A DNA stretch of 64,000 nt from positions 2,216,914 through 2,280,913 of the forward strand of contig BAOK01000001.1 in assembly GCA_000509225.1 (NCBI GenBank), given 5' to 3'. The notes beneath the pieces are model-generated. The model was given only the letters and a program-made list of their open reading frames with translations, had not been told where the DNA came from and searched no databases. Shown piece by piece: positions 661 through 35,165 of the stretch. The DNA comes from Parvibaculaceae bacterium Mf 1.05b.01. Its GTDB lineage: Bacteria; Pseudomonadota; Alphaproteobacteria; Parvibaculales; Parvibaculaceae. The number at the start of each line of letters is the position of its first letter. Position 1 is the first letter of the stretch. The position numbers and the translations under genes were made by a program.

Positions 661-1554
661 ATGACCCATTGGCCTTTGCGACACCTTTTTCTCTTTGCCT
701 GTGCATTGCTTGTCGGGTCTCCCGCAAGTGTTTACGCTGAGCAACCCGGTGCTCTGGAATTTTCCACGCTCAACGAGCCTGTTGTTACGACGCTTGATCA
801 GGCACCGAGTGACATCGCCCTCGTCACGACAGCGATAGTCGCCCGCATGCGCACCGACGGGGCGCCTGAAACCACGCCAGTTGTTTTTGCACCCAACATG
901 GCGAACCGCCTGCACGAAAAGTCGTTTCGGTATGCGGGCTTCTTTATTGACAGTATCACCGTGAGTTTCATCGGTCCTGCGAATGGATTGGAGGAGGGAC
1001 GGCGAGTCTATGGAACAATCCAGTTTGCTGATCAGCTTGGACGCCGCGCCGCTACTGCTTTTGGTGTTGAGTATGTTTTCGATGCTGGAGAGATTTACGT
1101 CTCTGATGTTTCGCTAGACCTTGCCGTGCCTGTCGATCCCGACATTCGGCTCTATCTCCTACCGACAGAAAGAGCATCGCAGATGCTGAGTGACGCCTCA
1201 GCAAGTCATCTTGATCTAATGGCATTCCTCGCCGAGCACGCCCTCGACGTGAACAGCATGAGCGGTATGTGCAATTGCGCAATTGTGGCAACCACGTTTG
1301 ATCGCATTCCTGGCGACGCACACCTCTATACGAGCGTCAGCAACGCGGAAAGTGGAGATAAGATTGTCATGGGTTCACACTTTCTGATGGACTATGACGG
1401 CTGGCGCGTGGCCGTTCTGGAAGGTCAATTTGATCTCACGTCGAGTTCTGACATACGCATCGATGCTCTCTATGCCGCCGCGCCAACACAAATCGACACG
1501 CCATCAACCTTCACCGTGGCCCGGAGTTTCCTCGCTGGTGAGGCCAGCCAATGA
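661..1554 (+). CDS. Secreted protein of unknown function
   Basis: This encodes 297 residues. I chose ATG 661 over an in-frame upstream start at 625 because it opens directly with a signal peptide: MTHWPLRH, a hydrophobic run, then a VYA cleavage site near residue 26. The rest is soluble with alternating strand-like segments, and a CNC motif sits near residue 205. No family is recognised. It overlaps the next gene by 4 nt (ATGA), so the two are probably co-translated and both exported, which suggests a shared extracytoplasmic job. Confidence 0.6.
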   Translation: MTHWPLRHLFLFACALLVGSPASVYAEQPGALEFSTLNEPVVTTLDQAPSDIALVTTAIVARMRTDGAPETTPVVFAPNMANRLHEKSFRYAGFFIDSITVSFIGPANGLEEGRRVYGTIQFADQLGRRAATAFGVEYVFDAGEIYVSDVSLDLAVPVDPDIRLYLLPTERASQMLSDASASHLDLMAFLAEHALDVNSMSGMCNCAIVATTFDRIPGDAHLYTSVSNAESGDKIVMGSHFLMDYDGWRVAVLEGQFDLTSSSDIRIDALYAAAPTQIDTPSTFTVARSFLAGEASQ

Positions 1555-3176
1555 ACATTCAATCAAGAGTCCCAAGCTTGATCCTGATGACGGTTCTCAG
1601 CCTCGCCAGTTCTGGTGCTGCTTTCGCTCAACATCATCATCTACCACACACCCCTCAACCGCCGGTCTTTACGCCGCCGACGCCGACACCCCCGGTGCCG
1701 CCGACGTTGCGGACGCCGAAGCCTCCCAGTGTGCCGCCGGCAGCAGCGCCGGATAACGCAGACACGCCCGAAGCAGGCGGCGACACGCGAGTGCCAAAAA
1801 TAGAAAAAGAGAACATCCCAAGGTTCGTCTACACGCTAGGGGATAGCTCTGACATCCAGGCTTATTTCAAGCCACCGACTGCAGGGCCAACGAACTGGGC
1901 GGCCGACGAAAACTGGTGCGATTGGCAGTGCGAAGCCCATAAAATGTTTCCCGACGCGGAAGAACCAACCGTGGAATACACGAAGATGATGGAGGAAAAG
2001 TACCGCATTCGTGAGGAGAGGCTTGACTACATCAACTCTGGCGAAGCTATTCCAGAGGAGTTGCGCATCGGTTTCTGGCACTTTGACGAAATCAAAGTGC
2101 GCACAGACGAAGATGGCAACGAGCGTTTTTTGCTACGCATTCAAGGCTTCGGCCAGGAAGCTGTTTTCTCTGTTGCCGCTGATGATATTGACGGGGGCAT
2201 TGCCGACAATGTCGAGAAGATCAGATCGATCGCCAGCTACAACGCACTGAATGTACAGGATCAGGCTGAGTTCTATCGAAGCAGAGCTGAGTCAGGGACA
2301 TTCACCGAAGAAAGCACAAAGGAATATTTCAGGCTTGCGGAAGCTTACGAAGCACAATTGCGCGCCTATAAGGGGCCCATCGCAAAAGTCGAAACAGCAT
2401 CCAGTGACACAACAACAAATCGGCCGGTTGATTCAATCTCAGTGCCGAGCGATGGCAACACACCAGGCGATTTACCAATTGTGCCGGCTCCCGAGGTGAA
2501 TGACACCAAGCCGCTGATCGACGCAATTGTATTGGATGACACAAGTCTATTCGATCCGGGCATGCTGGGCGGACACAAAGAGCCCAGCACCGGCGCGAAC
2601 GCCGCCCTCGAAGAACTCATTCGCACCACGCGCGACTTCAGCAATGATGAAGTGCTTATTGATATTGATGTGATTGACAATGGCAATCTCGAAGCGCTCG
2701 CCAACACCATGGCCAAGGTCAGTTTGGATGTGGGATTGGCGGTCGCAGGTGCCGTCAATCCCACGGTCGGCCTCACCATCGCATTCAGCAAAAACGCCAA
2801 GGAGACCTATGACTATGCGATCTCACAAGGGCTTAGCACACGTCAGGCGATTTTTGCCGCCACCGCTGCAGGTGCTGTTGGCGGCGCAGACACCTATGTG
2901 ATGGGTCTGGGGATTGGCAAAGTTGCAGGCTGGGGCGCCGAAGCCATCAAAGGAGCAACCAAAGGCGCCCTGGAACATGGAGTCGGGACAGCAGGGAATG
3001 CGTCTGGCTTTTCATTGGTGGGAAATGTGGGCAAGGCCCTTGTGGACAAAATGGTTGAACAGAATAAAAATCCATATCTCTATCAGCGTCCAAAAAGAAT
3101 ACAGCCAACAGGCCCTGGCCAGGTAACATTCATCATGGCTGGCGGGGGCAATTGGCAACAGAATGCTATGAAGTGA
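1551..3176 (+). CDS. Large secreted proline-rich protein of unknown function
   Basis: This encodes 541 residues with a signal peptide ending near AAFAQ (about residue 27). A His/Pro-rich linker follows with many P-x-P and TPPTP units (about 28-75). The middle region is acidic and soluble and contains a WCDWQCEAH segment. Residues about 400-500 are Gly/Ala-rich and resemble the glycine-zipper regions that precede toxin domains in polymorphic toxins, but no toxin domain is recognised. The start overlaps the upstream secreted gene by 4 nt. The proline linker suggests it spans the cell envelope. Function is unknown. Confidence 0.6.
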   Translation: MNIQSRVPSLILMTVLSLASSGAAFAQHHHLPHTPQPPVFTPPTPTPPVPPTLRTPKPPSVPPAAAPDNADTPEAGGDTRVPKIEKENIPRFVYTLGDSSDIQAYFKPPTAGPTNWAADENWCDWQCEAHKMFPDAEEPTVEYTKMMEEKYRIREERLDYINSGEAIPEELRIGFWHFDEIKVRTDEDGNERFLLRIQGFGQEAVFSVAADDIDGGIADNVEKIRSIASYNALNVQDQAEFYRSRAESGTFTEESTKEYFRLAEAYEAQLRAYKGPIAKVETASSDTTTNRPVDSISVPSDGNTPGDLPIVPAPEVNDTKPLIDAIVLDDTSLFDPGMLGGHKEPSTGANAALEELIRTTRDFSNDEVLIDIDVIDNGNLEALANTMAKVSLDVGLAVAGAVNPTVGLTIAFSKNAKETYDYAISQGLSTRQAIFAATAAGAVGGADTYVMGLGIGKVAGWGAEAIKGATKGALEHGVGTAGNASGFSLVGNVGKALVDKMVEQNKNPYLYQRPKRIQPTGPGQVTFIMAGGGNWQQNAMK

Positions 3177-3287
3177 TGCCCTTGGCTCCTAACGCAAGCT
3201 GAATGCGGCGTGACGTATAGATTTACCTCTCATGCGGATTGCCCCGAGGTTGATCATACTGTGGTTTGCAAGCGCAGCTTTGGGGCG

Positions 3288-3336
3288 CCGGGAGGTTTTC
3301 TTCCGCCGGAATGCATTGGTCACGATCAAACTTGCG
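3288..3336 (-). pseudogene. Remnant of acyl-CoA dehydrogenase N-terminus
   Basis: On the minus strand this segment reads RKFDRDQCIPAEENLPA. It closely matches RKFVRDHCIPAEEGL of the acyl-CoA dehydrogenase at the window start, also at the nucleotide level. There is no start codon and the match ends on both sides. I read it as the leftover of a deleted or recombined acyl-CoA dehydrogenase copy. Confidence 0.55.
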
Positions 3337-3401
3337 CCCGGTTCGGCCCCATGCACAACGCTGCGACATCTGGCGGTCCGACCTGACACTTGTGGAAGAA
3401 C

Positions 3402-3854
3402 TTACTTAGCAGGGAGATAGCGTGGGTCCAGGCCTACGCCCCATTTTGTCATCCAATCGTCAAAACGGGCGGCTTCACCAGCGTCATAGACATCAATCAT
3501 GCGCTCGATCATTCCGTCCCGGTAAGTCGCAATCTCCCAAAGGCCCGTTTCGAAGACTGGGGCGTCGCCACGGGAAAACCGGATATCTGCATGGACGAGC
3601 ACTGTGTTGTTTTCTTCCGCAACGAACGAATTCAATCCCACGGTTCGCGTGCACAATTTGTCAAACCGGTCTGTTGACCATTTGAGCCCGAAGATGAGTT
3701 CGTCGATCCCATTCAATTGACAATGGAAGGACATATTCATCACCTCATAAGAAACATCGGGTGTGAAATAGGGTCTCAAATTGTCCCAGCCCCCTTTCTC
3801 ATATGCCTCTTCAAATACGCCGCGTTGCTCAACAAATTTCTCAATCAAGCTCAT
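3402..3854 (-). CDS. SnoaL/NTF2-like protein
   Basis: This encodes 150 residues starting MSLIEKFVEQRG, preceded by a GAGAG ribosome-binding site about 5 nt upstream. An in-frame upstream start at 3911 lacks such a site. The pattern of N-terminal helices, then YFTPDVSYEV, then FETGLWEIATYRDGMIERM is typical of the SnoaL-like / NTF2-like cone fold, found in small isomerases, hydrolases and ligand-binding proteins. The GMIERMIDVYD segment is the usual last strand pair. Catalytic residues cannot be assigned. It stands alone on the minus strand. Confidence 0.7.
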   Translation of the reverse strand: MSLIEKFVEQRGVFEEAYEKGGWDNLRPYFTPDVSYEVMNMSFHCQLNGIDELIFGLKWSTDRFDKLCTRTVGLNSFVAEENNTVLVHADIRFSRGDAPVFETGLWEIATYRDGMIERMIDVYDAGEAARFDDWMTKWGVGLDPRYLPAK

Positions 3855-4077
3855 ATTCTCTCTCTTTTCGGTCGGGCCTGTGGGTTCGAGCACTCTGTGC
3901 AACCCACCCAAAACTCTACTTAGACTACTCTCAGTATTTATCTCCCTTACTTTGAGTTGTCAATGTAATATAATTGAGGAAAGGTAAGGCCCATTGACGA
4001 GAGCTGCATGCCTTCCCAATTGCTGTATGCATCGTTTTAGAAAAGCGTATGGACCAACTAGGCGTGCGAGGCCTCAT

Positions 4078-4509
4078 ATGACCATCCCCTATCGTGGTGA
4101 CTGCACCTGCGGCGCTATCTCCGTAGAGATCACCCTGCCAAAACCGATCGACACCTATACGCCGCGCGCCTGTGATTGCAGCTACTGCACACCGCGTGGT
4201 GCAGCCTATCTTTCGGACCCCAGCGGCGCGGTACAGATTTGGGCGCCAAGCGAGAGCGGACTTTGCAAAGAGCGGCAGGGCTCGGAAACTGCAACCATGT
4301 TGCTCTGTGCAGCTTGCAAGGGTCTGCTGGGAGCGGTGTGTGAGATTGAGGGGCGGCTCCTTGGTGCCGTCAATGTACGTACTCTGGAGCGCTATACTGT
4401 AGTTCCACCCGCGCAAACAGTTCACCTCAGCGAACTCGACGCTGACACGAAGGTTCAACGATGGTCTGACCTATGGATGCCATTTCAGGTCAATGTGCTG
4501 GCTGCCTAG
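4078..4509 (+). CDS. GFA/CENP-V family zinc protein
   Basis: This encodes 143 residues. The chosen start MTIPYRGDCTCGAI gives the standard GFA N-terminus, and an in-frame upstream start at 3994 adds only low-complexity sequence. Zinc ligands are visible as CTCG (about residues 9-11), CDCSYC (about 32-37) and CAAC (about 78-81). The family is named for glutathione-dependent formaldehyde-activating enzyme, but most members have unknown substrates. The third cysteine motif is CAAC instead of the usual CxxC-G arrangement after FC. It is a single gene ahead of a MATE exporter. Confidence 0.78.
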   Translation: MTIPYRGDCTCGAISVEITLPKPIDTYTPRACDCSYCTPRGAAYLSDPSGAVQIWAPSESGLCKERQGSETATMLLCAACKGLLGAVCEIEGRLLGAVNVRTLERYTVVPPAQTVHLSELDADTKVQRWSDLWMPFQVNVLAA

Positions 4510-4650
4510 GGCGACCTTTTCACAGCGACATAACCTCAATGCCTCTTTCTTTGCGCGGGTGCCTAACGTTTATTGCCTAACTTCAACTTTGAAAGCTATA
4601 ACTTTCGAATCCGAAGCCAGTCAATAAACACAAGAAAGCACCCGGACTCA

Positions 4651-6006
4651 ATGGATGAGCGTACCCGACACCTACTGACCTCTGCACCCGCTCCCCTTCT
4701 TGTCAAAATGGCAACACCCAACTCGCTGGCCTTTGTGATCCAATCAAGTGTCAGTCTGATCGAGGTCTGGTTTATTGGGCAATTGGGCACAAGTGCGCTC
4801 GCAAGCATTGCTCTCGCATTTCCCTTACTCATGCTGATGCAGGCCATGTCTGGTGGCGCGCTTGGCGGGGCGGTGGCGTCTTCCATCGCACGTGCCCTTG
4901 GCGCCGGAGATCGCGACCGGGCGCATAAGCTCATCTGGCATGCGCTCGCCATTGCGGCGATGGGCAGTGCTTTCTTCCTTTTTGTGTACCTGCTTTTTGG
5001 ACGCGCGCTGCTCGCCTTTCTGGGTGGGACCGGAGAAATTCTGGATCAGGCAGCTTCCTATTGCCTGGTCCTGTTTTTCGGCGGCCTGTTTGTCTGGCTG
5101 ATCGGTGTCGTTGGCGCGGTCTTTCGAGGCATGGGAGATATGAAGTTCCCTGCAATGTTGATGGTCATCAGCGCATTCATCCAGGTGCCACTTTCTGGCG
5201 TGTTGGTGCTTGGCCTTTTCGGCGTTCCACAATTGGGTATTGTGGGCGCGGCAATCTCTACCGTTGCAACCGGGTTTCTGGTCAGCGCTGTCATGCTTTT
5301 TGCGCTGAGCCGCCCGGGCCACGTCATCCAGCTGGACCGGCAGTTCATTGCCTTTGCCAAACCGCTCTTTCAGGACATTTTTAAAGTGGCGCTCCCTGCC
5401 TCCCTGTCGCCGCTTCTCACCATCTTCGGCATTCTCTTTCTCACTGCCATGGTGGCGACCTATGGCGAAGCGGCGCTCGCAGGCTATGGCATCGGTTCCC
5501 GGATTGAGTTTCTCCTTATTCCTCTGGTGTTCGGCATCGGTGCCGCTATGACATCGCTGGTAGGCCTGAGTATTGGCGCTAGGAACGTGGAGCGCGCAGA
5601 ACATATTGGCTGGACTGGCGGTCTTTTCGCTGCGGGCCTTGCAGGTGTGGTCGGGCTCTTGCTGGCGCTCTTCCCAGATGCCTGGATCTCTGCTTTTACC
5701 AATGACCCGGAGACGTTTGGGGCATCGCGCACCTACATCCTCTATGTGGGACCCTTCTTTGCCTTCCAGGGCCTTGGGCTTTCGCTCTATTTCGCAAGCC
5801 AGGGGGCAGGTGCCATGAGATGGCCGATTGCTGCGACCATCGTGCGCTTCATATTCGCCGTTGGCGGCGGTTGGGTACTCGCCTTCTCTTTCAATATGGG
5901 GCTTGAGGGTATTTTCATTGGCGCCGCTGCCGCCATGTTCATCTATGGCCTTATGATCGCCGCATCCCTGAAGCTTGGCGCCTGGCGTAACCTGGAGAGA
6001 GGTTAG
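4651..6006 (+). CDS. MATE family multidrug/Na+ antiporter
   Basis: This encodes about 451 residues from ATG 4651 (MDERTRHLL); an in-frame upstream start at 4573 adds an unlikely leader. It has roughly twelve hydrophobic segments. The MATE signature is present: an N-terminal TPNSLAFVIQSSVSLIEVWF helix and a FRGMGDMKFPA loop, with a second half beginning near PLFQDIFKVALPASL that repeats the pattern. MATE proteins export cationic drugs or metabolites using Na+ or H+ gradients. The stop is 2 nt before the HxlR regulator at 6009, so the two form an operon and the regulator may control the exporter. Confidence 0.88.
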   Translation: MDERTRHLLTSAPAPLLVKMATPNSLAFVIQSSVSLIEVWFIGQLGTSALASIALAFPLLMLMQAMSGGALGGAVASSIARALGAGDRDRAHKLIWHALAIAAMGSAFFLFVYLLFGRALLAFLGGTGEILDQAASYCLVLFFGGLFVWLIGVVGAVFRGMGDMKFPAMLMVISAFIQVPLSGVLVLGLFGVPQLGIVGAAISTVATGFLVSAVMLFALSRPGHVIQLDRQFIAFAKPLFQDIFKVALPASLSPLLTIFGILFLTAMVATYGEAALAGYGIGSRIEFLLIPLVFGIGAAMTSLVGLSIGARNVERAEHIGWTGGLFAAGLAGVVGLLLALFPDAWISAFTNDPETFGASRTYILYVGPFFAFQGLGLSLYFASQGAGAMRWPIAATIVRFIFAVGGGWVLAFSFNMGLEGIFIGAAAAMFIYGLMIAASLKLGAWRNLERG

Positions 6007-29021: not shown

Positions 29022-29354
29022 GTCTTACCTCTGCCCGTTGATGCGAGTAATACAGTCAAGTTCCACGGGTCTTGCTGATCGTACACTTTTCGCCCGTTGT
29101 GCAATTTAAGCATCAAGGGAACGCTTTACCTATCCCGCTTGTTCCATGTCTATGAGAGGAAACCTGCTGGCGCCGCCGAAATGCATAGAGTGCCGAGAAC
29201 GATTCGACACCATCACTCCGAAAGTGTTGATCCTGCATCCTGGTACCAAGGCACGTCAGGTGACGGGAGCGATGGAAGGACATGTTGGGGAAAGTGGAAA
29301 TGGTGCCCGGGGGCGAGCTCCAACGGTTTTTATTTGTCAGTGACTTACGAGCCG

Positions 29355-29409
29355 GTGGGACACTTTTATTTTCTAGTGTTTACTTATGTTTATGACGAAA
29401 GTGTCCCAC
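29355..29409. repeat. 12-bp perfect inverted repeat
   Basis: GTGGGACACTTT (29355-29366) and AAAGTGTCCCAC (29398-29409) are perfect inverse complements, separated by 31 nt. On the plus strand the right arm runs into TTTTTTT, so it could be a terminator or a protein-binding site near the prophage border. Confidence 0.6.
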
Positions 29410-29568
29410 TTTTTTTGCACCCCCTAGCGCCCACTTATTCCGTCTACTGATTTATTTGAAATCACCCACTTTGATGATGGTTGAGTGGTCACAGTCGCCT
29501 CCAAAGGGCGCGTAATTTTCCGACCGCTGCAGAAGAGGGGTCGAAAAAAAATTTGGCCGTCGGAAAAA

Positions 29569-29813
29569 GGTGACAAAGGTCACAAAGGTGACCGCGTTGT
29601 TTTTAAAGGGAAATTTCGAATGTCAAAAGGTCACCAAAAGGTAACCGGTTACCTTTTTGAAGGGTCACCAGCTCAAAAAAATTAGTGAATCATTTCAATA
29701 GGTTAGAAACGGTTACCTTTTGGGTTACCTTTGGTCACCTTTTAGGGGTCACCACGAACCTCAACAATATCAATAAGTTAGGTGCCATTTTCGGCGCGGT
29801 GACCCGGGTTACC
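29569..29813. repeat. Array of GGTNACC palindromic heptamers
   Basis: Within 245 bp there are eleven GGTNACC heptamers plus two GGTNAC partial copies. The left copies have A-runs in front and the right copies mostly have T-runs behind. The switch falls at a 22-bp perfect palindrome, 29636-29657 (AAAAGGTAACCGGTTACC plus TTTT). Iteron-like binding arrays of this kind occur at origins and partition sites. No protein from the window is shown to bind it. Confidence 0.75.
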
Positions 29814-29931
29814 CTTTTCCGGAGGGGGTGGGGTACTTTTTGTCCCAGCGGGTGGTTTGACCGTGAATGAGCTGCCTCTCGGCACATCAAATCCACACCC
29901 AATTTCGCGGAAGTGTCAGCGACAAGCGATC

Positions 29932-30201
29932 GGTCCCATTCCCATTGGCCTGCCAGTGTTTATCGCCACTGCAGTTGAAGAAAAAACGATCCACAAAGCA
30001 CACAGGCGAGGCGGGGAGTTGAGAGCGCAGTAAGAGGGAGACGAAAGGCTTGCCGAGAAACATATCGACTGGGCAAAACGCGACATCGCAGACCTGGAGT
30101 CCGGCTTCCAAAGACCTTTCACTTTTGATGATGTAGCTATCATTACGGAGCGCGTTAAGCGAACCGGGCTCACAGCCGCCTTTCGATCGTGCAGCATATG
30201 A
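29932..30201 (+). pseudogene. Broken reading frame, probable phage gene remnant
   Basis: One frame reads GLPVFIATAVEEKTIHKAHR, a TAA at 30031, then EGDERLAEKHIDWAKRDIAD and GFQRPFTFDDVAIITERVKR to a TGA at 30199. The second half has protein-like composition but no start codon. I do not recognise the family. Confidence 0.45.
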
Positions 30202-30307
30202 ATTGGCTTAACTGAAGAAGCTCCTGCTGAGGACAGCCCAGCGCCGACTTTCTGTAGCAACCAATTTGCCGCAGTGCGATGTGTCTCCGTAGCACTAGTG
30301 AGAGATG

Positions 30308-31300
30308 CTAGTAATCAGTGATGGGTTCAAAGCCAAAGTGTTCACCCATCATGTTGTGCGCTAAGTCCGCAGCTCTGAGCAAACGGCGATCGGCATGCTC
30401 CAGTTTCTTGTTGTACAAGGTCATGTTCATGGCGCCTTCGTGAACAAAACTATTTCGATCACCCACTAGCCTTGTAATCTGGTCGAAAAGCAAAATTCGC
30501 TTTCCCTTGGAATTCTTCTTCCAGCAGCCTTCGAAGTCCAAAGACTTGTCAAGAAGTTGGAAGTTTCGTGAAATCACATCTGGTCGCTGAAAAGCGAACT
30601 GGTTGGCAATAATTTCCTCTGCGCTGCGGCCTTTCTCTAGGCTGAAACGTGTCTTCGTTGGGTTCAAATTCGATCTTACTCGGTCCGAAATGCCTAGCTC
30701 TCGGAGAGATGCAACAAACAGGCTGCGAAAGTAGTCTTCCCAAACAGCGATCAAATATGGAAGTTGCATGTTATTCGAGAACAACAGCGGATTGAGATCA
30801 TCTAGAAAGGGTATTTCGTGCGGACCGTCGAGCGCGATATCGCCTTCAAACTTGCGAACCATCCTATAACGTCTTGCCAAACCAACAGCGTTTTCAAACC
30901 GCCAACGTGCGATGAAGCATCCTGAAGCAATGGGCGAGACTCTTTCATAGTCAGTTGGAAAAAACCTGTTTCTTCCGTAATCACTGATAAAGTGCCCTGC
31001 AGTAAAATCACGATATACGCGCAGGGTTTCATTAAGCTTTCGAACATCCCAGAAGCTGCCGCCGTACCGTGAGCGTGAGTGAACTGACAGACCTTCTTCT
31101 GTTTGATAGATGCCCAGCTCCACACCCGTCCATGATTTGTAATCCTCTTTTTCGTACCAAATGTAGCTTCCGACATGGCCCTCTATGTCTCTCCAGTCCT
31201 TGACTTTTTGGTACCCGAGAAGATCAGCGATTCTTCTAAGCTTCCTAAGTGAAGTTCCATCCGGAAAATAATTCGTCGCCTCGCGAGCCAAGACTTGCAC
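30308..31300 (-). CDS. Hypothetical protein with HEPN-like C-terminal domain
   Basis: This encodes 330 residues with a GTG start 5 nt after the stop of the gene upstream, so the two are coupled. The N-terminal half (about 1-170) is not recognised. The C-terminal half is helical: LPYLIAVWEDYFRSLFVASL, then IRLVGDRNSFVHEG-type sequence containing R-N-S-F-V-H, which fits the Rx4-6H active site of HEPN RNases, and a final helix HADRRLLRAADLAHNMM. HEPN proteins cut RNA in toxin-antitoxin and abortive-infection systems. Assignment is by motif and helix order only. It sits with an Abi-alpha gene at the left end of the prophage. Confidence 0.6.
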   Translation of the reverse strand: MQVLAREATNYFPDGTSLRKLRRIADLLGYQKVKDWRDIEGHVGSYIWYEKEDYKSWTGVELGIYQTEEGLSVHSRSRYGGSFWDVRKLNETLRVYRDFTAGHFISDYGRNRFFPTDYERVSPIASGCFIARWRFENAVGLARRYRMVRKFEGDIALDGPHEIPFLDDLNPLLFSNNMQLPYLIAVWEDYFRSLFVASLRELGISDRVRSNLNPTKTRFSLEKGRSAEEIIANQFAFQRPDVISRNFQLLDKSLDFEGCWKKNSKGKRILLFDQITRLVGDRNSFVHEGAMNMTLYNKKLEHADRRLLRAADLAHNMMGEHFGFEPITDY

Positions 31301-31305
31301 CCGTT

Positions 31306-31845
31306 TTATTCAACTTTACGGCCATGTTCTGCAGAGCTCGAAATGGATGTTGGCCAACAATCTGCAGCTTCAAGCAAGAGCTCCGACCATACAGTAAACT
31401 CTATCAGAAACCCTCTGTCATCTTGCTTACGATATGAACAGATGATTGCGCCGCAAGCAGCCCCGTCTTCTTCCACCCACCAATAGCGCGCAAAGAAATG
31501 TACTATTTGGCTGCACAGTTCCTTGATACCTACTACAGCCCGCTGAGGGCTTTCCCACTCAAAGTCTATGTGGCCGGGCGCATCTCTCCATATTGAGGAT
31601 TTCTCTGGAGCCTTACTGCGATAGGAAATTAGATCCAAGGATTTTGATGCAAAAACGTCAGTGACCTTGCGATCCTCGATGAGTTTGCGAAGAACTACAG
31701 CCGAGTAAAACAGTGATCGCTCAAGGTCGAATGGAACCTCTTCGCACGGCCATTTACCAGCATCGCGCATTGTTGCCGCGTGCTTTCGAAGCTCGGTCCG
31801 CCATGGAGCGCTCTCGTACATATTGCTATTCTTGCAATATTTCAT
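31306..31845 (-). CDS. Hypothetical protein coupled to HEPN-like gene
   Basis: This encodes 179 residues from ATG 31845, with AGAAG upstream; the frame is open to a TTG at 31869. No family is recognised. Features: an early helical segment FDLERSLFYSAVVLRKLIEDRKV, then a middle stretch rich in aromatic residues, WRDAPGHIDFEWESPQRAVV, and CSQIVHFFARYWWVEEDG. The stop is 5 nt before the HEPN-like gene. If the partner is an RNase toxin, this could be its antitoxin or a sensor. Confidence 0.55.
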   Translation of the reverse strand: MKYCKNSNMYESAPWRTELRKHAATMRDAGKWPCEEVPFDLERSLFYSAVVLRKLIEDRKVTDVFASKSLDLISYRSKAPEKSSIWRDAPGHIDFEWESPQRAVVGIKELCSQIVHFFARYWWVEEDGAACGAIICSYRKQDDRGFLIEFTVWSELLLEAADCWPTSISSSAEHGRKVE

Positions 31846-32002
31846 TTTAACTTCTACTGCCTTGTCCAAAGGCTGCGAAAGACCGCTTCCCGTCCTTCTA
31901 TACCATCTAATGCACTGCAGCGGAGGGCTCGAAGCCGCCGTGACAGCTCCCTGACTGGCAGCCCAGAATTCACGGCTTAACTATTAGTTGCCCAACCTGC
32001 GT

Positions 32003-32701
32003 TCACCGCTCCTGGCTATCATTTACAGCGTAAAAGAAATCAACGCCCAAGCCGGTGACAGCAAATAGCTCAGTATCCTTGTAGGAGGATAGAGAATGGT
32101 CTCCTATGCTGACGCCGCCGGTTACAACTCCTGGCTTGAACAAACCCAGGCGGATCAGGTTGCGCACAGCGTTCTCAACGACTCCCCCAGGAAGACTGGT
32201 ATGTTCTACTATCTTGTCCCTCACGAAAAGGGTTCGATCTGTACGCTTCTTATCGGCCAAATGTTCCCTAACGATTAGATCGAGTATCTGAGAGTCAATC
32301 GGCTCCATGTCCGCGAGCATGGAAGTGAAATTTCGGCGTAACGGTCTGTCGTAAGTGGCATCACGCGCGTTGGCTAGCAAGTTCGCCCATTTTTCCTGAA
32401 GACTCGGGTCTTCTTCAACAGTTGCCTTCTCTATAATCGGCAAACCAAATGCGACTGGCACATGTCGTTTCGCTACACCACGCTCTCGCAGCTTTTGATC
32501 AACAGCCTGTTGCAAAGCAATGGCCTTCTCCAGTCGATAATAGGCAAGCTTATCGCCAACAAGGCCGACGGAATTAGAAACAACGTTACCAAACATGCCA
32601 TCCAAAAACGAGGCGAGGTTCTTTACCGTTTCAACTGAAGTATTGGCCGCCTCAGCGATGTCTTTGGCCTGTTTTCCAATATCGTGGTTTGATTCTGACA
32701 A
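32003..32701 (-). CDS. Abi-alpha (DUF4393) family abortive-infection protein
   Basis: This encodes 232 residues from a TTG at 32701 that has GGAGGTG 7 nt upstream; the frame stays open to 32851 but the extension has no family-like sequence. GLVGDKLAYYRLEKAIALQQ, then RGVAKRHVPVAFGLPIIEKA and EEDPSLQEKWANLLANARD, match the Abi-alpha/DUF4393 pattern, with PIDSQILDLI in the C-terminal part. The founding members are named for abortive infection in Lactococcus; the mechanism is unknown. It is a separate minus-strand gene between two HEPN-like genes in the P2 old/tin position. Confidence 0.75.
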   Translation of the reverse strand: MSESNHDIGKQAKDIAEAANTSVETVKNLASFLDGMFGNVVSNSVGLVGDKLAYYRLEKAIALQQAVDQKLRERGVAKRHVPVAFGLPIIEKATVEEDPSLQEKWANLLANARDATYDRPLRRNFTSMLADMEPIDSQILDLIVREHLADKKRTDRTLFVRDKIVEHTSLPGGVVENAVRNLIRLGLFKPGVVTGGVSIGDHSLSSYKDTELFAVTGLGVDFFYAVNDSQER

Positions 32702-33071
32702 ACTGAGCACCTCCAATAGCAGCTGGCACTCGCCAGATTTTATATGAATGTCCACTGTCGGAGAACAGTCCCAAATTTGCAAATCCCGCTTGCGAAGTAG
32801 AGCTGCCGTCTGACGACAACGCCGCGTCCGGTAAAGAAGGCTCGAAGCCACCGCGTTGTCGTACGGCCCGCGCCCGACTTCAAAGCGGGGTGGAGTCTCG
32901 GTCGACTATAATACCCGAATTAAACTTCCAAAGGGGCGCCTAGTCTATTCGAAGTGCAAACGCCATGACGGCGTGGCAACATGACCAACAAAGAAGCCAA
33001 CACCAGGGATCGAGCCCTGCGTCGGCTACCAACAAAATCTCTGGTAGGGTGCTTGACGACCCAACGACGCT
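32702..33071. other. Intergenic stretch between defence genes
   Basis: This contains the possible N-terminal extension of the Abi-alpha frame (32702-32851) and then sequence in which I see no gene, hairpin or repeat. Confidence 0.3.
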
Positions 33072-33980
33072 TTACGATGTTGGTGGGTCAATCAGTGTCC
33101 AGTCTGTATCGTCCTTGTTAGGGTCAGCACGTTTATCTGGATACTGGCGAACATCGTGCTGCATTCTTCCATTCTCATTGTGACCTATTTCGATGATACG
33201 CGCCTCTTCCCAAAGGCCATCTGGAAACTTTGCGTCGCTGTCTTCAAGAAGCATCTTCATATCGTCAACGCGAATTTCATCTGTTTCGGTCATTCCACTA
33301 CTGGCTCTGTATGTTATTCTCGACGGTGCGCCACCACCAATTCGTGCAACACAGAAACCATCATCGTCGATATTGAAGACCCAACTCCGCAATAGGTCTG
33401 ACTTATCACTGTTGATTCTCTTTACGTCGTCACGAATACGCTCGACCAACGTACACAGCTTGTCAAATCGGCCTGCATCCCACATTCGTTTGGTTCGCTC
33501 ATTCACTAGACGTGCATAATCTTCTCGACCCTTCGGGTCTATGGGATATCGTGCATCAAAGACAACTGCATCCCGAAGGTCGTTAAGAAGACTTCGCTCC
33601 TCACTAATCAAAGCCAAGCCAAGCTCTTCAGCCATTCGAACAAAATCATGCCCGAACACATCCTTCACCGCGTGGCGAAAAACATCTTCCGGGCAATCGC
33701 CATAGAGTTTTACCAAGCCCGCTTTCAGGAAGCTCTCAGCCGCATAACCAACCAACAAGATTGTCGAGCGAGGCGCGCCTTCCAACTTGTACCAGTCCAC
33801 TCCAAAATCTTTCCCGCTGCGTAACCTCTCACCAGTGTTCTGTTTGAACTCTTCCCGATATGTCATCCAGTGTTCCCGCAGGATATCCGCCGAAGCTAGA
33901 TGCCCCTCGCCCGCGTCCAACCACTCCCTCGGGTCAAACAGGCCTTTACTTCTAATGGTTACCTTGGGTTTCCTTTTCAT
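33072..33980 (-). CDS. HEPN-like hypothetical protein, candidate defence gene
   Basis: This encodes 302 residues from MKRKPKVTIRSKG, preceded by AGGAGGA. The order FDPREWLDAGEGHLASADILRE, then STILLVGYAAESFLKAGLVKLYG, FGHDFVRMAEELGLAL and DLRDAVVFDARYPID is that of HEPN-type helical domains (first-helix ladder, A-x-E-x-x-L-K, then an H-D/F-x-x-L helix and R-Y-P). The C-terminal part (about 200-302) is beta-rich and unassigned. It neighbours the Abi-alpha gene and the portal gene. Confidence 0.6.
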   Translation of the reverse strand: MKRKPKVTIRSKGLFDPREWLDAGEGHLASADILREHWMTYREEFKQNTGERLRSGKDFGVDWYKLEGAPRSTILLVGYAAESFLKAGLVKLYGDCPEDVFRHAVKDVFGHDFVRMAEELGLALISEERSLLNDLRDAVVFDARYPIDPKGREDYARLVNERTKRMWDAGRFDKLCTLVERIRDDVKRINSDKSDLLRSWVFNIDDDGFCVARIGGGAPSRITYRASSGMTETDEIRVDDMKMLLEDSDAKFPDGLWEEARIIEIGHNENGRMQHDVRQYPDKRADPNKDDTDWTLIDPPTS

Positions 33981-34145
33981 CAGTCCTCCTACCACTGCAA
34001 CACCGTGTGTCGCTGTGCTATTGCAAATCGTCATTGAAAAAAGGGGAAATGGAACGCCACCCAGGCTGTGGAACAAACGACGCCACAGCACTTACACTCT
34101 TTACCATGAACTTCTGGGAGTCAACGATACCGGCCCAGTTGAGTT

Positions 34146-35165
34146 CTACTTTACTCCCACCCCGGCATCAGCGACATCGATGACATAGTCGTCAAAATCG
34201 ACAACCTCTTCCCCGATCCAGTCATTCACTTCGCGAAAGCGTTGCTGCAACGCCGTTAGTTCGTTGATCACGAAGACCTTGCTCGCCGCTTCAATAGAAC
34301 CAAAGCCGCCTGTATTGCTCGGCACGATGCCCATCAAGGGAGGCGGCACGCGGTGCGCGGCCAGTACATCGTCGCGGGTTGCATTCTTGATGTTGAAAAA
34401 CTCATCCTTTGCGGTGACCTCAGAAATCGGGATGAGCTGCACCCCGTCTTTCTGGCCCCCTGGCGCGTTTAAAAACAGGTTCTTGAAATTGCCGATGCCC
34501 TTCGACTTCTTCAGCTCTTCGCGGATCCTGTCTGCATCTTTCTGTTCAATGTTCGCGTCGTTCAGATAGAGGATGAAACCCGCATGGCTTCCATTCTCGT
34601 AATATTTGCGACGAAAGAGCGTCGCACTTTCATTGAGCCAGGCAGAGTTGAGCGCGGCGAGATATTGCGGCATGCCGTAAATCTCTTGCGCCGGGTCCGG
34701 CTCCAGCAGATGGAAAACCGACCCAGCCTTAAACTGGTGCGTGTCCGCCCAGGATTTCACCCAGAGATAATGATCCGGGTCTTTCATGCGCCTGGTTTGC
34801 AGCGCAGGTGTCGGGCGCAACTTCGCGGAACCACCCAGGCGATTGGCGACATTCTCCAGATAGCAATTGCCAAGAATGAGATAGTCGAGCACCCAGCGGC
34901 TAAAGTCCTGCCTGGACAAAAGGCGGTGCGGCTTAAAGGTGGAGGTGAGGATTGCCTGCTTTAAATGAATGGCCGAGGCATGGTGCGCATTCGCCCGGAA
35001 GCTTTTCACCAATCCCATTTGCGAGATGGGCGGCTCAAAATAGAGCCCATTATCCATGAGCTGGAGATAGTCCATCACTTCCCGGCCGTCGAGCATGGGC
35101 ACCGGATCCCCAAGCGTGAAGACCTCCGCACTTACCTTTGACGCACTCTTGCCTGCATCACTCAT
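34146..35165 (-). CDS. Q: Phage portal protein, P2 gpQ type
   Basis: This encodes 339 residues. Typical gpQ/PBSX portal phrases are FTLGDPVPMLDGREVMDYLQ near the start, GLYFEPPISQMGLVKSFRAN, SRWVLDYLILGNCYLE and ATRDDVLAAHRVPPPLMGI. The portal forms the dodecameric DNA channel at one head vertex. Its start overlaps the terminase stop by one base (TAATG). Both are transcribed leftwards, away from the capsid genes, exactly as Q and P in P2. Confidence 0.93.
   Translation of the reverse strand: MSDAGKSASKVSAEVFTLGDPVPMLDGREVMDYLQLMDNGLYFEPPISQMGLVKSFRANAHHASAIHLKQAILTSTFKPHRLLSRQDFSRWVLDYLILGNCYLENVANRLGGSAKLRPTPALQTRRMKDPDHYLWVKSWADTHQFKAGSVFHLLEPDPAQEIYGMPQYLAALNSAWLNESATLFRRKYYENGSHAGFILYLNDANIEQKDADRIREELKKSKGIGNFKNLFLNAPGGQKDGVQLIPISEVTAKDEFFNIKNATRDDVLAAHRVPPPLMGIVPSNTGGFGSIEAASKVFVINELTALQQRFREVNDWIGEEVVDFDDYVIDVADAGVGVK

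Follow-up and report, generated by a model that had tools for sequence, protein, structure and literature searches.

What are four consecutive minus-strand genes doing at the very edge of a P2-like prophage, between its attachment site and its portal gene? The window, that is, the whole stretch of 64,000 nucleotides that was analysed, corresponds to C2:2216914-2280913 of a 3.82-Mb two-contig genome. A sequence-only reading of it had proposed that the genes to the left of Q form a defence-type cluster, placed where P2 keeps old and tin and possibly including an undescribed system. The features that matter for this question are the following.

29301 to 29315, plus strand: attL core, TGGTGCCCGGGGGCG, which duplicates the tRNA-Phe 3' end (exact repeat and ARAGORN).
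29316 to 30053: conserved phage-end DNA that bounds the cargo slot on the left and contains a GGTNACC array.
30308 to 31300, minus strand: g1, 330 aa, predicted C-terminal HEPN ribonuclease with R282-NSFV-H287 (PF18735, E 0.0033; relative in an E. coli phage).
31306 to 31821, minus strand: g2, 171 aa, unnamed family, 5 nt from g1 (24 relatives; start by homology).
32003 to 32701, minus strand: g3, 232 aa, Abi-alpha (DUF4393) abortive-infection protein (PF14337; ORF readable from 32851).
33072 to 33980, minus strand: g4, 302 aa, orphan whose HEPN match is below threshold (PF05168, E 0.07).
34146 to 35165, minus strand: Q, portal protein, the right border of the cargo slot (phrog_68, E 2e-150).
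L009:5885-5960, to the right of the window: tRNA-Phe gene, at the opposite prophage end.

The four genes proposed earlier are indeed there. All frames are intact, and codon use is better in the annotated frame than in the five others for every gene (4/4). Protein relatives of g1, g2 and g3 exist elsewhere, which rules these three out as chance ORFs. Two starts had to be corrected. For g3 the most likely start is TTG 32701, after the SD sequence GGAGGTG, and alignment with the homologues begins only near residue 57 of the long ORF; for g2 it is ATG 31821, as the three closest relatives begin at the same MYESAPWR. The start of g4 is ATG 33980, after GGAGGA, and that of g1 is GTG 31300, directly after the stop of g2. 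With this gap of 5 nt only g2 and g1 look translationally coupled, as had been suggested for the unnamed protein, while the remaining gaps are 165, 370 and 181 nt. A scan for sigma-70-like promoters, which is a weak guide in the present organism, found none on the cluster strand, and terminator-like sites in the cluster showed no excess over shuffled sequence.

The prophage that carries these genes is of the P2 type, has a length of ca 38.6 kb and is inserted in a tRNA-Phe gene. The last 15 bases of that gene are repeated at 29301-29315, which sets the extent of the prophage to 29301 to ~67899; the same att core is found at the end of a sister prophage (L007:17643). To the right of the cluster lie the terminase gene P and the portal gene Q. 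Beyond the window, in L009, follow a large replication-type gene (1192-3867), a tyrosine-type integrase (4119-5165) and then the tRNA-Phe gene, where the replication-type and integrase roles are read from the sequence, with no profile search behind them. The cluster occupies the left prophage edge. Once the prophage is excised and circular, the cargo falls between int/attP and Q, and the large replication-type ORF sits just past int. The GC content of the cargo is 0.497, lower than the 0.563 of the stretch from Q to D.

Some further features of the prophage ends can be mentioned here. Beside attL (29587-29813), a seemingly non-coding stretch of ~230 bp contains eleven copies of GGTNACC, and the array is retained in both sister prophages (L007:17145-17365 and L008:8830-9050); in the whole window the motif occurs 24 times, against 9.7 expected. 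It is possibly a replication origin, a cos-region or a regulator array. Inverted copies of AAAGTGTCCCAC / GTGGGACACTTT adjoin both attL and attR (29355-29413 and L009:5800-5843), and these are possibly arm-type integrase sites. The IMG/VR entry IMGVR_UViG_2585427801_000002 is the same prophage trimmed at 33069, with g4 kept and attL and g1–g3 lost (29301-33068). Because the catalogued contig ends at this point, the hotspot cargo has been lost through automated prophage trimming.

The character of the slot can be judged by comparison with sister prophages. Q of the present type occurs in three of 40 genomes of the order, all of one genus, and is 93% identical in one sister prophage (G005) and 70% identical in the other (G003). 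In G005 the homology resumes at 29298-30053, with 92% identity to L007:16904-17660, and in G003 a part of the left border recurs with 78% identity (L008). Between Q and the attL-side border, the three prophages hold three unrelated cargos. In G005 the slot contains an ATPase and an HNH protein that form a PtuAB-like pair (PADLOC PDC-M01A/B, E 2e-186 and 1e-93; PtuA match also, E 1.7e-168), and in G003 a single restriction-methylation enzyme of 1629 residues, type IIG/ISP-like (E 0). Besides the PtuAB-like pair, the G005 slot also holds a 610-residue protein that has no Pfam or PADLOC family (L007:10668-12500).

The gpA-gpQ interval of P2, which contains old and tin, is a published hotspot of defence genes (PMC9122126, PMC9519451). 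With different cargos between conserved borders in three sisters, and with known or candidate defence genes in two of these cargos, the present slot is a defence cargo hotspot as well, as far as can be judged by genome comparison. As in P2-like phages, the cargo lies directly beside Q, is swapped among relatives and is replaced by recognised defence genes in the sisters. The proposed old/tin position is right with respect to Q and needs qualification at the other side: the slot appears to correspond to the gpA-gpQ interval, except that the integrase and the att site share the interval here, which puts the cargo at the edge of the prophage, with attL on one side and Q on the other, unlike in P2. 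A further difference is that no PADLOC or NCBIfam model recognises g1, g2 or g4. When 94 Q-adjacent proteins from other P2-like phages were scanned with PADLOC, DNA methyltransferase models came up in at most five members; the scan is too coarse for more. In a set of 79 further P2-like contigs, of which many are short, none of g1–g4 was found beside Q. The claim of a defence cargo spot, which draws also on the tested family of g3 and the intact motif of g1 described below, is upheld, and the slot is most likely a defence cargo site of a known kind, with partly undescribed genes.

Among the individual genes, the membership of g3 in Abi-alpha, as proposed earlier, is firm at the level of profile comparison: it scores 63.9 bits against PF14337 (E 2.5e-17), where the curated cut-off is 29. 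In PADLOC it has a weak match to the candidate PDC-S47. Its relatives include single genes in Vibrio filamentous-phage records, and the plasmid search gave two weak relatives; the same search gave nothing for g1, g2 and g4. The founding member of the family, ef2833 of E. faecalis prophage 6, has been tested and aborts infection through premature lysis (PMC6356687). Both it and g3 are prophage-borne, but g3 is a distant member of the family, with 22% identity over 97 aa to gp19 of phage 80alpha. A second Abi_alpha gene is present in the same genome, at C2:1523203-1523907 (E 1.8e-20; L060 = G000:C2:1518000-1529000).

For g1, the match to PF18735 (17.8 bits, cut-off 28.4) is below threshold. A relative in Escherichia phage 500465-2, which covers 88% of g1 with 24–25% identity, matches the same profile better (E 1.2e-4, 22.5 bits), and R282 and H287, the Rx4-6H motif of the C-terminal domain, are invariant between the two. 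In P2-like prophages of E. coli this relative stands by itself, with D on one side and ogr on the other, and its DNA is found in 64 of 5,426 complete E. coli genomes. There it is WP_000532200.1, annotated as hypothetical, an accession that a literature search did not retrieve. Among the genomes sampled from the phylum, class and family, the only hit to g1 was the window itself. g1 is a predicted C-terminal HEPN ribonuclease that belongs to no defence or NCBI model.

A protein to compare with g1 is Tha (80alpha ORF3), a tested, tail-activated prophage HEPN RNase with the motif R265-NSIM-H270 (PMC11087260). Both are prophage genes of ~300 aa with an uncharacterised N-terminal half and a C-terminal HEPN domain (predicted in g1), the motif being RNSIMH in Tha and RNSFVH in g1. 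However, homology between them is not detectable (hhalign probability 0.2%), Tha is located in the cI operon while g1 is beside Q, and no antisense inhibitor gene was identified for g1. It can also be mentioned that phage 80alpha contains both Tha and a DUF4393/Abi-alpha gene (L053:1662-2567 and L053:8517-9374), that is, the same two kinds of gene as g1 and g3.

Another protein of interest is RnlA of E. coli (RNase LS), which is likewise a HEPN RNase with an N-terminal domain. The AlphaFold2 model of g1, obtained from two distinct sequences, is poor (pLDDT 47), and its best fold match has a Z of 7.5, to designed bundles. Residues 10-102 align to the N-terminal domain of RnlA with Z 5.6–6.1 (~75–80 residues, 2.8–3.3 Å), values within the range of common arrangements, and because the model is poor this likeness is kept as a mere lead. 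Sequence homology to RnlA is not detectable (hhalign 0.1%), and the Pfam N-terminal, repeat and DBD domains of RnlA/LsoA, which are detected in RnlA, are absent from g1. When g1, its E. coli phage relative, Tha and RnlA are aligned, nine columns are invariant, including the catalytic R and H.

The second HEPN-like protein of the earlier proposal is g4, and here the assignment is weaker than for g1. The match to PF05168 reaches 13.7 bits, with a cut-off of 22, and contains no Rx4-6H; the sole Rx5H, at residue 261, lies outside it. Plasmids, phages and the genomes sampled at the levels of phylum, class and family yielded no homologue of g4. A HEPN identity of g4 is thus unproven.

Turning to g2, relatives were found at 24 loci when 84,980 species genomes were scanned. 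Three of these, of Rhodobacteraceae type, have 46–53% identity, and the rest, mainly from beta- and gammaproteobacteria, have 20–24% over the alignment. At least 7 of the 21 loci have complementary sequences (GTTAGCCGTCA and covarying variants) on either side of the gene, as in integron cassettes; complementarity of the two cassette ends was the test adopted. A strict test for GTTRRRY integron sites shows a weak excess (4/21, P 0.016), weak because the sites read GTTAGCC. Some of the locus tails appear to resemble the attC site of aadA. Across beta-/gammaproteobacteria, the family (L024-L044) has the appearance of a mobile integron cassette gene, for which neither annotation nor fold is known.

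The model of g2, of good quality (pLDDT 81), has two long helices and a mixed sheet. It gave no Foldseek match at E 0.001 in PDB or BFVD, and the best VIA-align hit (Z 4.8, 99 residues, 3.5 Å) is to an unrelated protein. A CNQxIH motif had prompted the idea that g2 is a HEPN protein. These searches gave the idea no support, though a relation to HEPN proteins may exist all the same, and the option of an RnlB-like antitoxin was discarded as there is no similarity. A HEPN family from integron cassettes has been described (PMC3710099, PDB 3jrt). Many g2 relatives share with it the integron-like cassettes, but no HEPN-like chain is among the solved-fold matches reported for the g2 model.

The close spacing of g2 and g1 raises the possibility that they constitute a single two-gene system, in which g2 would silence the HEPN RNase g1 as an antidote, or would sense the phage, to give a toxin-antitoxin-like abortion. 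Several of the g2 relatives indeed have Rx4H-motif or HEPN-type proteins as neighbours (in G690, Polynucleobacter, Methylophilus, Methylophaga and Stenotrophomonas). However, the HEPN-like protein encoded beside the G690 relative shows no detectable similarity to g1, and downstream of two of the closest g2 relatives (L022, L023) there is no HEPN gene, with a third locus (L021) ending too early to tell. Other neighbours are an AAA ATPase and a GajA-type ATPase, the contexts are diverse, and some loci have no recognisable defence gene. Given also that g1 has a solitary relative in E. coli and that g2 is not RnlB-like, the g2-g1 pairing is, in the genomes compared, not conserved, and we consider such a system unlikely. 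The more specific version, an undescribed anti-phage pair in which g2, with a fold without known relatives and spread in cassettes elsewhere, gates a prophage HEPN ribonuclease, is likewise doubtful.

An undescribed system, as proposed earlier, is possible, but the solitary relative of g1 and the g2 relatives without g1 make the four genes better read as separate modules. g1, g2 and g4 fall outside the PADLOC and NCBIfam models (the PADLOC-type check suggested earlier returned only the weak match of g3), while the slot and its logic are already known.

It is important to note that prophage cargo can also consist of morons with another benefit to the host. In the present case, the genes could accordingly act in host fitness, lysogeny control or phage morphogenesis, or be decaying cargo. 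The first GC-poor genes after attL are often non-essential cargo, and g2 and g4 have no recognised domain, both of which would fit such a role. On the other hand, the intact frames speak against decay, the absence of g1–g4 from the sister phages means that they are not structural, and the Abi-alpha and HEPN domains together with the sister cargo point to defence, which makes a role of this kind quite unlikely. Finally, that all four genes make up one undescribed defence system is very improbable, since, although they are consecutive, on the same strand and in one slot, the gaps other than that between g2 and g1 are wide, no related locus contains more than one of the four, the relatives of g1, g2 and g3 occur separately, and none of the four turned up in the Q-adjacent DNA of the 79 other P2-like contigs, a set with many short members.

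The explanation that we favour, and regard as probable, is that the interval 30054-34145 serves a P2-like temperate phage as its cargo slot and holds separately acquired superinfection-exclusion genes that would be expressed from the prophage. In this scenario, g1 would most likely be a prophage HEPN RNase that rests as an idle dimer. Its N-terminal half would sense, directly or indirectly, a product of the invading phage, upon which the C-terminal HEPN domain, through R282 and H287, would cleave RNA and halt the infected cell. g3 most likely acts like the Enterococcus Abi-alpha, that is, early lysis or death would abort the infection. g2 could assist or regulate g1, or act on its own, and g4 would be a cargo gene without assigned role. 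The sequence itself establishes the genes and their position, the borders of the prophage, the exchange of cargo among the sisters, the membership of g3 in Abi-alpha and the conserved HEPN motif; expression, sensing, cleavage of RNA, death of the cell and the roles of g2 and g4 are inferred.

The analysis also puts a name to a putative HEPN gene, WP_000532200.1, that is annotated only as hypothetical in those 64 complete E. coli genomes and is testable in laboratory strains, and it brings out, in g2, a widespread unnamed cassette family with no fold known. For the prophage lineage itself, the results suggest that the cos-proximal defence hotspot known from E. coli P2-like phages is at work in a distant genus.
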